Source of the DNA: a virus
Reading direction: 5' to 3' (one strand)
DNA: 36,586 nucleotides
Virus record (IMG/VR): IMGVR_UViG_3300045256_000813
Coordinates: 1-36,586 of that record
Below, in pieces: positions 30,178-35,369 of this stretch (position 1 is the first letter of the stretch; every line of letters begins with the position of its first letter). Made by a program: the position numbers and the translations under genes. Under the pieces are notes generated by a model. The model was given only the letters and a program-made list of their open reading frames with translations, made no database searches and was not told the origin of the DNA.

Positions 30178-30232
30178 TTTTAGGCATTTTAGAATATGGA
30201 ATTATGGTACAAAACCCCCCTAGATTCTCTTA

Positions 30233-30487
30233 CTAATTAGCCAGCATTTGGGGTGTTTCTGAGGGCTTTTTTACATGAAAAATGGCTTCTTGGCATGTCC
30301 AGCACTCATTGTTTCTTACCTCGCTGGCACTTAGATCAGCATCGCAGTGTGGGCAGTGCGTGTAGGTTTGGTGCTGAATAACAGCCTTTCTTTCGCCAGT
30401 ACCTGTGGTGCAGGTATGAGGTGCTTGATGGGTGGTTGTGCCAAGCTTTTCTAGTTCACAAGCTGGGCAGTTGTTAATTGTTTGCAT
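30233..30487 (-). CDS. zinc-ribbon protein
   Basis: From the ATG at 30487 it has 84 residues with two CxxC pairs plus extra Cys/His: NNCPACELEKLG, HTCTTGTG, then THCPHCDADLS and ECWTCQEAIFHV. This is a zinc-ribbon/double-ribbon arrangement. The tRNA-like element lies upstream at 30577-30640, so longer upstream starts would run through it and were rejected. It may bind nucleic acid or another protein. Confidence 0.6.
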   Translation of the reverse strand: MQTINNCPACELEKLGTTTHQAPHTCTTGTGERKAVIQHQTYTHCPHCDADLSASEVRNNECWTCQEAIFHVKKPSETPQMLAN

Positions 30488-30576
30488 GGTTGTGGTTTTT
30501 GTAATTAGGTGGAATTGGGAAGTAGTTTTTCGGTCACTTCCCTTCACCATCATCTTTGTGCTTACTAATCCTTTGT

Positions 30577-30640
30577 GGAGAGAGTAGGACTCGAACCTAC
30601 CCCTGTTGGCCATGTTGTGCACCAGTTACACCATCTCCCC
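30577..30640 (-). pseudogene. tRNA-like sequence with truncated anticodon arm
   Basis: The minus strand has a 7-bp acceptor stem (GGGGAGA with TCTCTCC, one G-U), a D-arm GTGT-AACTGGT-GCAC with the GG pair, and a perfect T-arm GTAGG-TTCGAGT-CCTAC. Between D and T arms only 16 bases remain (30601-30616), where about 23 are normal, and no anticodon stem can form. CCA is not encoded. It is therefore a tRNA remnant or a tRNA-mimicking RNA, not a normal tRNA. Confidence 0.7.
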
Positions 30641-30645
30641 AATTT

Positions 30646-30674
30646 TAGCCCACCTGTAGAAACAGGTGAGGCTA
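30646..30674 (-). promoter_or_regulatory. strong hairpin directly upstream of the tRNA-like element
   Basis: AGCC-CACCTGT-AGAA-ACAGGTG-A-GGCT pairs over 11 positions with one bulged A and a 4-base loop. It stands between the Gam-like gene stop (30705) and the tRNA-like 5' end (30640) on the minus strand. It could be an mRNA-processing site, attenuator or part of a structured RNA with the tRNA-like element. Confidence 0.5.
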
Positions 30675-30704
30675 CCCTTAAACCCAGCTATCCAAATGAA
30701 AAAA

Positions 30705-31238
30705 TTATGCTGCCAATTCTTCTTTTTTAAGTTCCACATAAAACTTCTCCTCCTGGTCTATACTCACAAATGCTTCTTCCTTCAACTGGTTTAATACAGC
30801 TTCATTCTTTTCTGATAAAATAGCCTCCTTATTTATCTCTTCGCTAGTACGAATAAACTTGCTGAAAACCATGTTTTTTTTCATTAACGCTAATACGGCA
30901 TCCCAAGTAAACTTCTTATCCTTGGTAACCTTTGGTGTGCCAGTTCTAAAGCCAATAATTGTGTGCAGTAGCTCTTGGCTTTTCTTTTTTCCCCAATTAT
31001 TTTTCTGCTCACTCGCAAACACCTGTAATACTTCCAGTGGCTCTGCAAGGCTTTGTTGTAGCTCAGTTACTTCATCAGCATACTTTGCTTTCACCTTGTT
31101 TATTTCATCATTCATTTTTGCTTCAATCTTTTCTAGCTTGTTTTGCTGCGTTGCATACAGTTCACTTGCTTCCTGTGCATTTTCAAGTGATACATTACTA
31201 ATTGTAGGTTTAGTAAACCTTTTTGTTGCTGTTGCCAT
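30705..31238 (-). CDS. Gam-like host nuclease inhibitor
   Basis: This 177-residue protein matches the Mu Gam family in layout: a long N-terminal coiled coil (ASELYATQQNKLEKIEAKMND and EINKVKAKYADEVTELQQSL) followed by a Ku-like region with KKKSQELLHTIIGFRTGTPKV and TWDAVLALMKKNMVFSKFIR. Mu Gam binds DNA ends and blocks RecBCD-type nucleases. Its position between the transposition genes and later early genes matches Mu. Charged, no membrane segments. Confidence 0.82.
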   Translation of the reverse strand: MATATKRFTKPTISNVSLENAQEASELYATQQNKLEKIEAKMNDEINKVKAKYADEVTELQQSLAEPLEVLQVFASEQKNNWGKKKSQELLHTIIGFRTGTPKVTKDKKFTWDAVLALMKKNMVFSKFIRTSEEINKEAILSEKNEAVLNQLKEEAFVSIDQEEKFYVELKKEELAA

Positions 31239-31269
31239 AATGGTCTTTATTTATTTATTGATTAAATGG

Positions 31270-31401
31270 TTACGCTCTTCTTTTTACCAACCACAATAGC
31301 ATTCTTAAGAAAATACACCAGCTTACTATTATGGCTATTAATATGGTTAGCAATTGTACTAAAGCTTCATCTTGTGATTCAGGCAGTGAAATGTGGTTCA
31401 T
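31270..31401 (-). CDS. single-pass membrane peptide (43 residues)
   Basis: An ATG at 31401 opens a 43-codon frame: MNHISLPESQDEALVQ, a hydrophobic segment (LLTILIAIIVSWCIFL) and a basic tail (VKRRA). Its stop at 31270-31272 is 32 bases before the Gam-like start. The topology is clear even though the frame is short. The function is unknown; it fills the otherwise empty gap 31239-31417. Confidence 0.5.
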   Translation of the reverse strand: MNHISLPESQDEALVQLLTILIAIIVSWCIFLRMLLWLVKRRA

Positions 31402-32622: not shown

Positions 32623-33360
32623 TTACTTTAGTTTAAAATACTTTTTTGCATCCTTGGCAGTTGGCCTACCATTAAAATCTTCTATCAGGGGAAATAGGAA
32701 ATCCGTTAGTTCACCGTAGTTTTCACAATGCTTGTAGCAAAGGCTTTGCAACGCTTCATCCTTAATGTTCAAAGCAGTGAAGAATTTAGGGAACTCTTTA
32801 CCCCTGTCAATAGGTGCTAATGTTATAGTTCCCATTTTTAGCCTACGCCATAGCTGTGGAATGGCCACACGGTTCTTTTGCCTTTTGTTCAGAATCTTGT
32901 CCATTATTTGGTCTGTACCAATAAGGCAAATGGCACATATTTTTACAAGGGCATCGTACAGTGTTTTAATACTTTGCAACATGCTTACTGGCAGGTTTTC
33001 ACCTTCATCTATAATAATAATGGGCTTTTTGCCATCTGCTTTAAGCAGCTTTATCTTGGCCACTATGGCCATCAGCTTTTGCTGCTTGCTTCTTTTACTG
33101 CTGGTAACGCTTACAGTTTCGCCAAGGGCTTCTAGCAAATCATCTACAACATCATCCCATGTATAAGTGCTGCTAACGGTTAGCATGTACACATCGTGTG
33201 AAGCTTTGGCATACTTGTTCCTGATGGCCTTGCTCAAAAAGGTTTTTCCAAAACCAGTATTGCCTATTATCATTCCAGCACGGCACTTGGCTTTCAAATC
33301 TTCAATATGTGCCAGTGTTTCGACCATCTGTTCTGTTTCAATTAAAATGTTTGTGTTCAT
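32623..33360 (-). CDS. MuB-like AAA+ ATPase
   Basis: This 245-residue protein has Walker A GNTGFGKT (residues 33-40) and Walker B IIIIDE (114-119), then an AAA+ sensor region (ICLIGTDQIMDKIL) and RRLKMGTITLAP. It lacks the N-terminal HTH of Mu MuB (312 residues), so it is a shorter relative of the type seen in Bacteroidota phages. It would bind target DNA, deliver it to the transposase and give target immunity. It directly follows the transposase gene. Confidence 0.88.
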   Translation of the reverse strand: MNTNILIETEQMVETLAHIEDLKAKCRAGMIIGNTGFGKTFLSKAIRNKYAKASHDVYMLTVSSTYTWDDVVDDLLEALGETVSVTSSKRSKQQKLMAIVAKIKLLKADGKKPIIIIDEGENLPVSMLQSIKTLYDALVKICAICLIGTDQIMDKILNKRQKNRVAIPQLWRRLKMGTITLAPIDRGKEFPKFFTALNIKDEALQSLCYKHCENYGELTDFLFPLIEDFNGRPTAKDAKKYFKLK

Positions 33361-33380: not shown

Positions 33381-35369
33381 TTATTGGTAATCGGCGTGGT
33401 TTATTTTGCTTCGTTGATAATCCAAATATTCTTGGCGTTCTTCATCCTGTTGGGCTGGCTGTTCATGATAAGCCTGTTCTGCTGCTGCTGTTAGTTCCTT
33501 TGGTTGGTAGCCATTTAGCATAATAGCTTTTGGGTCAATACCTGCACCATGCAATGGGGTGTTGGCTGCACTGTTCAGTTTCTTTGCCAGTTCCTTTTTT
33601 TCACTCAACACCATGTTTAAAGCTGCCCTACTGCCTGGCTGGTGGTAGGCTACTGCTGCTGTATGGTAATGTGTATGCTTGGCCATGAACTGCACTTCTT
33701 TAAAGTCAGTTATCAGTACTTCATTCATATCGAAAGGGTCATACACTACAAATACTTCAGCCCTATCTACCAAGTGTACTTGGTTGTTGTAATCAGGCAA
33801 ATCATAGCTGTACTTAATACCATCAATTACTGGCTCAATGCCACGGTTAGTAATGGTGATGCTTCTACCTTGTGGCTGGTGAACAAAACCAAACCTGTAC
33901 AGCATCTGCATGTGGCTTATGGGCCTTTTAATATGTGCAGGTGTTTCTTTCCACCGTTGCAAAAAGGTATCCTGCTTGCTTGGTGCATTCATATTGTTTT
34001 TGGTAAAGGCTGGCATGTTACGCATCAGCCATGTAAACTGTTCCACCTGTGTATCACTCTCACTGCCTATGCTTGGCCTTTGTTTTTGGTACAGTTGTAT
34101 GGCTTCTACGTTCACGCCACGGTTTGCAGCAGTAACGTTGTTACCATTATAGTTAAGCAGGTTATGTGCTGGTAATTTTTCACACCGTTTTGCATGGGCC
34201 GAGCCAAAGAATGGTTCTATATAGCCACGATGCTTGTTACCAATGCCTGGTTCAATAAACTTTCCAATCTGCTTAAAGAAAGGGTGGGCAATTTTTCTTT
34301 GCCAATGGTCAGCTTTTACTTCATAAGGCAAATGCCAGTCACCCGTTAAGTCCTTTATATAATGCATGGCATCTAACCAAGCCAGCTTTACCATGTCAAA
34401 CACTGGTGCCGATGCTACCCTGTAACTTTTACCCAAAAGCAAGCCTGTTGCACTATCAATCACCAGGTAGGAAACATACCTATTGAATGGGTTGCCATCT
34501 TGCCCTTTGAAATAGTAGTTAATGTTGTAATCATCACTTTCTACCAAGGCCAATGGGTGCATGGTGCTGGCTGGCAACCTTTTCACCTGCTTAATATACT
34601 TATCGTTGGTATGGCTCCAACCGTGCCTTGTAGGTGCTATTTTTTCAGCCCATTCAATTCGCTTTGCAGTTGTTGTGCTTACTGAGATATTCTTGTATCC
34701 TTTAGATTTCGCCCATGCATTGTATAAGATTGTAACAAAAACATCATCATAATCATTTGGGTGCTTCAGTAATTCAAATAATTGGTATTCACATTCACCA
34801 GCTTCTACTTTTATCGCATTTTGCTTGCCAGTATTTCCATGCACAAGAGCTTCGTACTTGTTTTCTTTATACCTCTTTAGCATGCTATCTTTTTTGTAGA
34901 TAAGCCTTTCAAAAGAGGTAGGCAGCTCTACCTTTTCAATTTTAATAAGCTCAACCACATTGCTATTAAATACATCTAGCGTAAGCTTAAGGCTGTTTTT
35001 AATAAACTTTTTGTCATCATACATTTTCAAAAGCATATTCAGCCAGCTAGCAGCAGTTGCCTTCTTTCGGGCAATATCATAATCAAAGCCATTATCTAAA
35101 AAGAACTTTTCAGCCTCCAAATCATACACTACAAGTTCTTTAATAGGCTTCTTGGCCATGTACTCATGAACATCACCATACACTTTAGTAATGGCTTCTT
35201 TATATTTATCCCCTAAGCCATCAAAAGGAAAAAGTAACCTGCCTTTTTCTTTGATATTTGGAAGAGTAGAGTAGCCTTTACTTATATACCCATATAAATT
35301 TTTCTCCTCAAAGCCACAGGCGAGCAGGTCAGGCATTTCTATGTGCAGTCTGTCATTTATATACTTCAT
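33381..35369 (-). CDS. MuA-like DDE transposase
   Basis: This 662-residue protein is a MuA-type transposase. The catalytic core begins at ALVESDDYNINYYF (Asp 279/280), continues at VIDSATGLLLGKS, has the second acid at EVKADHWQ (Asp 354) and the third at RGYIEPFFGSAHAKRCE (Glu 385). The N-terminal 200 residues would contain the end-binding subdomains, and the C-terminal tail (QPAQQDEERQEY) ends the B-interacting region. It cuts and joins the prophage ends during lysogenisation and replication. The length is typical of MuA (663). Confidence 0.93.
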   Translation of the reverse strand: MKYINDRLHIEMPDLLACGFEEKNLYGYISKGYSTLPNIKEKGRLLFPFDGLGDKYKEAITKVYGDVHEYMAKKPIKELVVYDLEAEKFFLDNGFDYDIARKKATAASWLNMLLKMYDDKKFIKNSLKLTLDVFNSNVVELIKIEKVELPTSFERLIYKKDSMLKRYKENKYEALVHGNTGKQNAIKVEAGECEYQLFELLKHPNDYDDVFVTILYNAWAKSKGYKNISVSTTTAKRIEWAEKIAPTRHGWSHTNDKYIKQVKRLPASTMHPLALVESDDYNINYYFKGQDGNPFNRYVSYLVIDSATGLLLGKSYRVASAPVFDMVKLAWLDAMHYIKDLTGDWHLPYEVKADHWQRKIAHPFFKQIGKFIEPGIGNKHRGYIEPFFGSAHAKRCEKLPAHNLLNYNGNNVTAANRGVNVEAIQLYQKQRPSIGSESDTQVEQFTWLMRNMPAFTKNNMNAPSKQDTFLQRWKETPAHIKRPISHMQMLYRFGFVHQPQGRSITITNRGIEPVIDGIKYSYDLPDYNNQVHLVDRAEVFVVYDPFDMNEVLITDFKEVQFMAKHTHYHTAAVAYHQPGSRAALNMVLSEKKELAKKLNSAANTPLHGAGIDPKAIMLNGYQPKELTAAAEQAYHEQPAQQDEERQEYLDYQRSKINHADYQ

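Follow-up and report, generated by a model that had tools for sequence, protein, structure and literature searches.

The window, that is, the whole stretch of 36,586 bases analysed here, is a Mu-like transposable phage of Bacteroidota. Its transposition genes and gam are listed in Table 1, and its head and tail genes lie elsewhere in the window. Behind gam, the (-) strand carries in order a hairpin, a spacer of 5 nt, a tRNA-like element and a small cysteine-rich ORF. The ORF finder extends this last frame through the element; because the similar ORFs of relatives begin at the match to position 30487, we rejected the element as coding sequence.

Table 1. Positions of the early genes and of the parts of the tRNA-like element in the window
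Feature	Positions	Strand	Basis or remark
Transposase	33381-35369	(-)	
MuB-like DNA transposition protein	32623-33360	(-)	
gam (Mu Gam-like end protection protein)	30705-31238	(-)	PHROG 491, E 1.1e-28
Hairpin, UUCU loop, no U-run	30646-30674	(-)	fold; motif common to related phages
tRNA-like element, 64 nt	30577-30640	(-)	Rfam tRNA, 35.7 bits; fold
Acceptor stem, 5' strand GGGGAGA	30634-30640	(-)	sequence; 7/7 pairs with 30577-30583
D arm GUGU-AACUGGU-GCAC, Gln/Trp type, without A21	30617-30631	(-)	comparison with phage tRNA-Gln and tRNA-Trp
16-nt linker AACAUGGCCAACAGGG, replacing anticodon arm and variable loop	30601-30616	(-)	sequence, fold
T arm GUAGG-UUCGAGU-CCUAC	30584-30600	(-)	sequence, Rfam tRNA match
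Acceptor stem, 3' strand UCUCUCC	30577-30583	(-)	sequence, Rfam tRNA match
Discriminator A73	30576	(-)	followed by C A
Small cysteine-rich (zinc-ribbon-like) ORF, downstream of element	30233-30487	(-)	

Structure and detection of the element

The canonical 7-bp acceptor stem and 5-bp T stem are both present with 12 of 12 pairs formed, the acceptor pairs including G1-C72, G2-C71 and G3.U70. U8 and G9, G18G19 and the T-loop consensus are retained and A21 is absent. The description in the earlier note, namely a tRNA-like sequence with acceptor, D and T arms, a canonical T-loop and 16 bases between the D and T arms, is thus confirmed. A usual tRNA has 23 nt where the element has 16, and the fold gives these 16 nt no stable stem in place of the canonical 5-bp anticodon stem with its 7-nt loop.

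The Rfam tRNA model aligns to the element over its full length with 35.7 bits (gathering threshold 29; E 7.9e-6 in 601 bases), and over the entire record the element is the sole match (E 1.2e-7). It is missed by the default Rfam scan of the entire window, ARAGORN calls neither a tRNA nor a tmRNA in the window, and the Rfam families besides tRNA (C4 antisense RNA and others) yield one chance-level match at E up to 10. Taken alone, the element has an ordinary folding energy (z -0.47; 58 of 200 shuffles do as well); together with the hairpin it reaches z -2.86.

In its D region, UGGUGUAAYUGGU(A)GCACAAC, the element matches phage tRNA-Gln and tRNA-Trp, and we therefore take it to be derived from an ordinary tRNA. 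The pattern GTGTAAYTGGTN{0,2}GCACAAC matches 25 virus stretches, and the matches inside tRNA genes are mostly in genes of the Gln or Trp type, with a few Ile-, SeC- and unknown-type calls. This resemblance supports the explanation that the element is a functionless, decaying phage tRNA gene of the Gln/Trp type from which A21 and some 7 nt of the anticodon/variable region have been deleted, an account that we regard as quite plausible without being probable. One possible reading of the linker is a damaged CCA (Trp) arm, and tRNA-like sequences with unusual middles occur elsewhere in virus records: of 27 pattern matches, 8 have a matching acceptor and are missed by ARAGORN. The earlier note had argued that decay would not spare three arms, which fails as a sole argument since one short deletion explains the missing arm; loss of the 7 nt and A21 gives the same shape. 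The intact acceptor and T-stem pairs nevertheless weigh against decay, as do the relatives described below.

The hairpin next to the element

The strong hairpin that was initially noted just upstream of the element is indeed strong (z -4.3 alone) and 5 nt away, although it consists of 12 pairs with one bulge and not of 11 bp. On the (-) strand it is followed by AAAUU rather than the U run of an intrinsic terminator, and no terminator-like site was found in 30200-31300. Among 64 post-gam regions of related loci, stem-loops with UUCU, GUCU or UUCC loops occur in at least 17 when only the best hairpins are listed; several further regions carry such stem-loops as judged by eye. Usually no tRNA-like element accompanies them. 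A strong hairpin near an element is found only in Chitinophagaceae-type phages and in locus L174, and in the window, L047, L048 and L067 the element starts approximately 5-8 nt from the hairpin.

The stem sequence is also frequent outside the phages: 8 host-family genomes contain 36 copies of CTGTTTCTACAG, compared with 4 of the reversed control. Of the sites inspected, many are stems followed by T runs, often behind a shared lead-in, and most are terminator-like; the ORFs upstream of them revealed no gene in common. Phage copies of the CTGTTTCTACAG-type stem-loop matched no family when scanned against Rfam. Judged by its sequence, the hairpin is a terminator-like motif that the host clade has in common with the phages, and the recurrent CTGTTTCTACAG stem-loop could be a terminator or a 3' RNA peculiar to this clade. 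We rejected the hairpin as an element-specific partner because relatives have it without the element and many host-family sites exist.

Two further observations concern host genomes. Host-family loci L099-L128 carry the stem-loop with CTGTTTCTACAG, often with the lead-in TTCATATGGCAAGCAATCGTTAGAGG, in several copies per genome. In the genus of G254 (L048-L056 and L098), gam is present in 10 of 10 genomes, most of them with the hairpin, and several of these loci have an apparent convergent gene right behind; this suggests that they are long-kept parts of prophages.

Elements behind gam in related loci

Gam-based searches provided 12 distinct virus records, along with phage records, and Gam matches in 41 of the 394 genomes searched in one family, namely that of a Chitinophagaceae MAG found via the MuA of the phage. 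Samples of the order, class and genus added a few more loci; those of the order, class and phylum yielded few Gam loci and contributed no new element, and a second sample of the family consisted mostly of the same genomes. A further 80 virus loci are the best 80 of 343 matches to alignment A3; this query contains three element-bearing loci (L048, L060 and L067) and supplied 80 of the 144 regions, which biases the sample. In total 64 + 80 = 144 post-gam regions were examined, comprising 105 clusters at 80% DNA identity over at least 150 bases; the 64 do not include L091, where the contig ends, or L094, which coincides with L080. Nothing useful was obtained from the phage DNA search with the window region, from the MuA protein search in viral contigs (that in genome contigs gave one locus), or from phage and plasmid DNA searches with L207 and L208, and the DNA search with L174 returned only tRNA-Met regions among the matches listed.

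tRNA or tRNA-like elements are present in 14 of the 144 post-gam regions, corresponding to 13 of the 105 clusters, with the best 80 of 343 matches included. All 14 are on the gam strand, right after gam. Elements with a sense-strand T arm are those of the window, L034, L047, L048, L060 and L067 in the first 64 regions, and L174, L185, L207, L208, L221, L223, L228 and L242 in the further 80. Most relatives have no element after gam, and none was found there in Porphyromonas and fecal phages. Since the elements were found via the T arm, its intactness is partly built into the set. The weak T-arm matches of L044 and L046 lack an acceptor partner and were not counted, and L210 was dropped as a probable match within coding sequence; the acceptor of L242 passes the looser scan and fails the strict one, and that of L185 was found only after the range was widened.

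A scan for a T arm with its acceptor matched 5 of the 64 regions on the sense strand and 0 of 64 on the antisense strand, and 200 shuffles of these regions gave a mean of 0.2 matched regions. The strict T-arm/acceptor motif, sought over 799 kb of related loci, rarely occurs outside the post-gam interval, the exceptions being a tRNA-Phe near one prophage, T arms lacking a matched acceptor on the other strand of L229, L233 and L234, and a weak T arm in L044. Plain chance is therefore rejected. Antisense matches in the post-gam regions are lone T arms with no acceptor partner (L088 and L175).

The elements differ considerably in construction. A few are canonical tRNA-Met, i.e. those of L221 and L228 and a second element in L174 (63.7, 63.8 and 58.1 bits, respectively), and in most the middle is missing, shortened or enlarged and the acceptor and T arms are intact. 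The distances from acceptor to T arm are 33 nt in the window and 37, 39, 41, 42, 45, 66, 84, 101 and 111 nt in others. L223 (49.9 bits) and L242 (48.1 bits) have extra bases in the anticodon arm. L067 (528-597; 37.7 bits) lacks G18G19 and has a UCA anticodon, so that a UGA suppressor is possible from its sequence. For L047 the best match is the tRNA part of tmRNA (31.3 bits, under the gathering threshold of 47), L034 and L036 reach 20.0 and 14.6 bits as tRNA, and L048 and L060 give no tRNA match up to E 5. In L036 another ORF intervenes, and the element follows gam at a distance of about 550 nt.

Three separate observations may be recorded here. The tRNA-Met genes of the transposable, Bacteroidota-type phages L221, L228, L174 (3478-3551), L242 and L145 (1501-1573) look initiator-like, with the first position unpaired. 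In L060, the T arm near 2090-2215 lies within an extended stem, with 8 bp formed between leader and trailer. The unrelated virus contigs L002, L005, L017, L018, L020, L024, L026 and L028 contain tRNA-like sequences, missed by ARAGORN, with 88-103 nt between an intact acceptor and T arm; these gaps are possible introns or insertions.

We aligned 14 acceptor/T domains chosen by their T arm and acceptor (alignment A4), including L036 and leaving out L060, which has a T arm and no standard acceptor stem. In this set, which is biased by that selection, 163 of the 168 cells of the acceptor and T stems are paired, and both sides change in 9 of 12 pairs. On these sequences A4 shows a common fold at great divergence, and the set could also reflect independent gains of tRNAs. 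ARAGORN leaves 6 of the 14 elements uncalled and assigns 3 to unknown type. Behind the acceptor, 10 of the 14 have N73-C-A, versus 27 of the 154 tRNAs from other virus loci (p 5e-5), a difference that could be a general trait of Bacteroidota tRNAs. The gam identity between the window and L029-L035 is 52-64%.

These relatives bear on decay in both directions. Canonical tRNA-Met stands at the very site in L221, L228 and L174, and elsewhere in another relative, which speaks for decay; most related elements are noncanonical, yet keep their acceptor and T arms at deep gam divergence. A complete tRNA or unrelated sequence in related phages had been named at the outset as the sign of simple decay, and this is encountered in part: tRNA-Met in the three loci above, and nothing in many others.

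The tRNA-like domain of tmRNA offers another comparison. Like it, the element combines acceptor and T arm with no anticodon arm and carries G3.U70 and A73; unlike tmRNA, it has no mRNA domain or tag reading frame within its 64 nt, and its D arm is paired. G3.U70 is the main alanine determinant (PMC9976931, in the part consulted), and charging by AlaRS occurs in tmRNA (PMC3985003, likewise in part). The element could thus be an alanine-charged tRNA mimic, an AlaRS substrate without anticodon arm that acts as decoy or alanine donor. G1-C72, G2-C71, G3.U70 and A73 are all in the window element, and L047 shares G3.U70 besides its tmRNA-like score. However, G3.U70 is found in only 2 of the 14 A4 elements and the rest cannot work in this way, so we rejected alanine charging as the general explanation and consider it improbable for the window element.

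Even less credible, in our estimate very improbable, is a translationally active unusual tRNA with a nonstandard anticodon loop, e.g. a frameshift or nonsense suppressor. Nonstandard anticodon loops do exist in L207/L208, L223 and L242, in addition to the UCA anticodon of L067, but the window element has no stable anticodon arm, allowing at most a loop of 5 nt or fewer on a mismatched stem.

The L207/L208 pair is less open than A4 to the objection of T-arm selection. Both elements are noncanonical (ARAGORN 'tRNA-???'; no Rfam tRNA match up to E 1). They are identical at 61 of 70 positions (87.1%), compared with 80.0% for gam and 75.1% for the next downstream CDS. Seven of the nine differences are in loops and linkers and one compensatory end pair changes from G-C to U-A, while the 22-nt noncanonical middle is identical. 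In the fold of L208 this middle forms a mismatched stem with a 4-nt loop, not an anticodon arm; in L207 the free-energy minimum is another fold, and the cloverleaf-like form is not the predicted optimum. Hence at least one noncanonical element at the post-gam site appears, from sequence comparison, to be under constraint, which weighs against decay. This pair is the sole evidence of selection, and it comes from other phages, with an element middle unlike that of the window.

A possible processing mark in the early transcript

The element is a variant of known tRNA-like RNAs. With phage tRNA genes of the Gln/Trp type it shares the acceptor, D and T arms, the type of D region and a site occupied by canonical tRNA-Met in relatives; it differs from them in having neither anticodon arm nor A21 and in being unseen by ARAGORN. 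Decoding is lost, and the acceptor/T-arm domain and the D arm are kept in the window element.

RNase P cuts hairpins composed of acceptor stem, T stem and T loop alone, and also phage RNAs such as the C4 precursor, M3 RNA and T4 gene 32 mRNA, as stated in the part of PMC11143913 consulted; non-tRNA substrates appear also in that of PMC4919922. The element possesses all three parts of the minimal substrate described in PMC11143913, and RNase P cleavage is predicted at the 5' end of its acceptor stem. We tentatively propose that the element is a recurrent tRNA-like processing mark that retains the RNase P-recognised domain and punctuates the early transcript, a reading to which we give a nearly even chance. 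Host RNase P would cut the early transcript at the 5' end of the element (30640), freeing a gam-side mRNA whose terminal hairpin and short tail would resemble a stable 3' end, and leaving on the other side a new 5' end or a tRNA-like fragment. Such a mark would tolerate any anticodon arm or none; across the elements it is place, strand and acceptor/T domain that stay constant.

A functional tRNA mimic, for example one for RNase P, had been suggested by the earlier note. This suggestion stays alive and is slightly favoured because of the noncanonical elements of relatives and the structure-preserving conservation of L207/L208: varied noncanonical elements recur at the same place and strand, and one pair is constrained. 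It is weakened in that other relatives hold canonical tRNA-Met or nothing. The relatives with ordinary tRNA-Met imply that the site may simply accept tRNA genes.

The proposed processing mark resembles several known systems. As in the C4 antisense RNA precursor of P1/P7, M3 RNA and T4 gene 32 mRNA, the cut is proposed within a phage transcript; in contrast to these, the putative substrate here is openly the upper half of a tRNA. The C4 RNA represses as an antisense RNA and has its own fold. In mitochondrial tRNA punctuation, tRNA structures serve as cutting marks between messages. The t-elements are likewise tRNA-like structures that mark cuts between messages (PMC4919922, in the part consulted). 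Unlike mitochondrial punctuation and t-elements, the present case concerns a bacterial phage and interchangeable, partly armless elements, and the cutting is only proposed. No description of tRNA-like elements behind gam was found in the literature, which was searched mostly at the level of listings, and the words tRNA and Gam are both absent from the part of the hankyphage paper PMC12135933 consulted.

The presence of differently built tRNA-like RNAs at the same spot hints, as far as sequences can tell, at a kept non-decoding role. It is conceivable, though on balance unlikely, that transposable phages of Bacteroidota generally carry fast-changing, tRNA-derived RNase P marks, some with a decoding arm and some lacking it, behind gam in the early transcript, in which only the acceptor/T domain is selected. 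Such marks, if real, would amount to tRNA punctuation in a virus of bacteria. If many phages have armless tRNA-like RNAs at one fixed place, this would show that structures of the tRNA type can be retained for processing and not for decoding, and these RNAs would offer a simple test of RNase P transcript punctuation in bacterial viruses. They would also call for caution, in that part of the phage tRNAs and tRNA pseudogenes on file may be something else.
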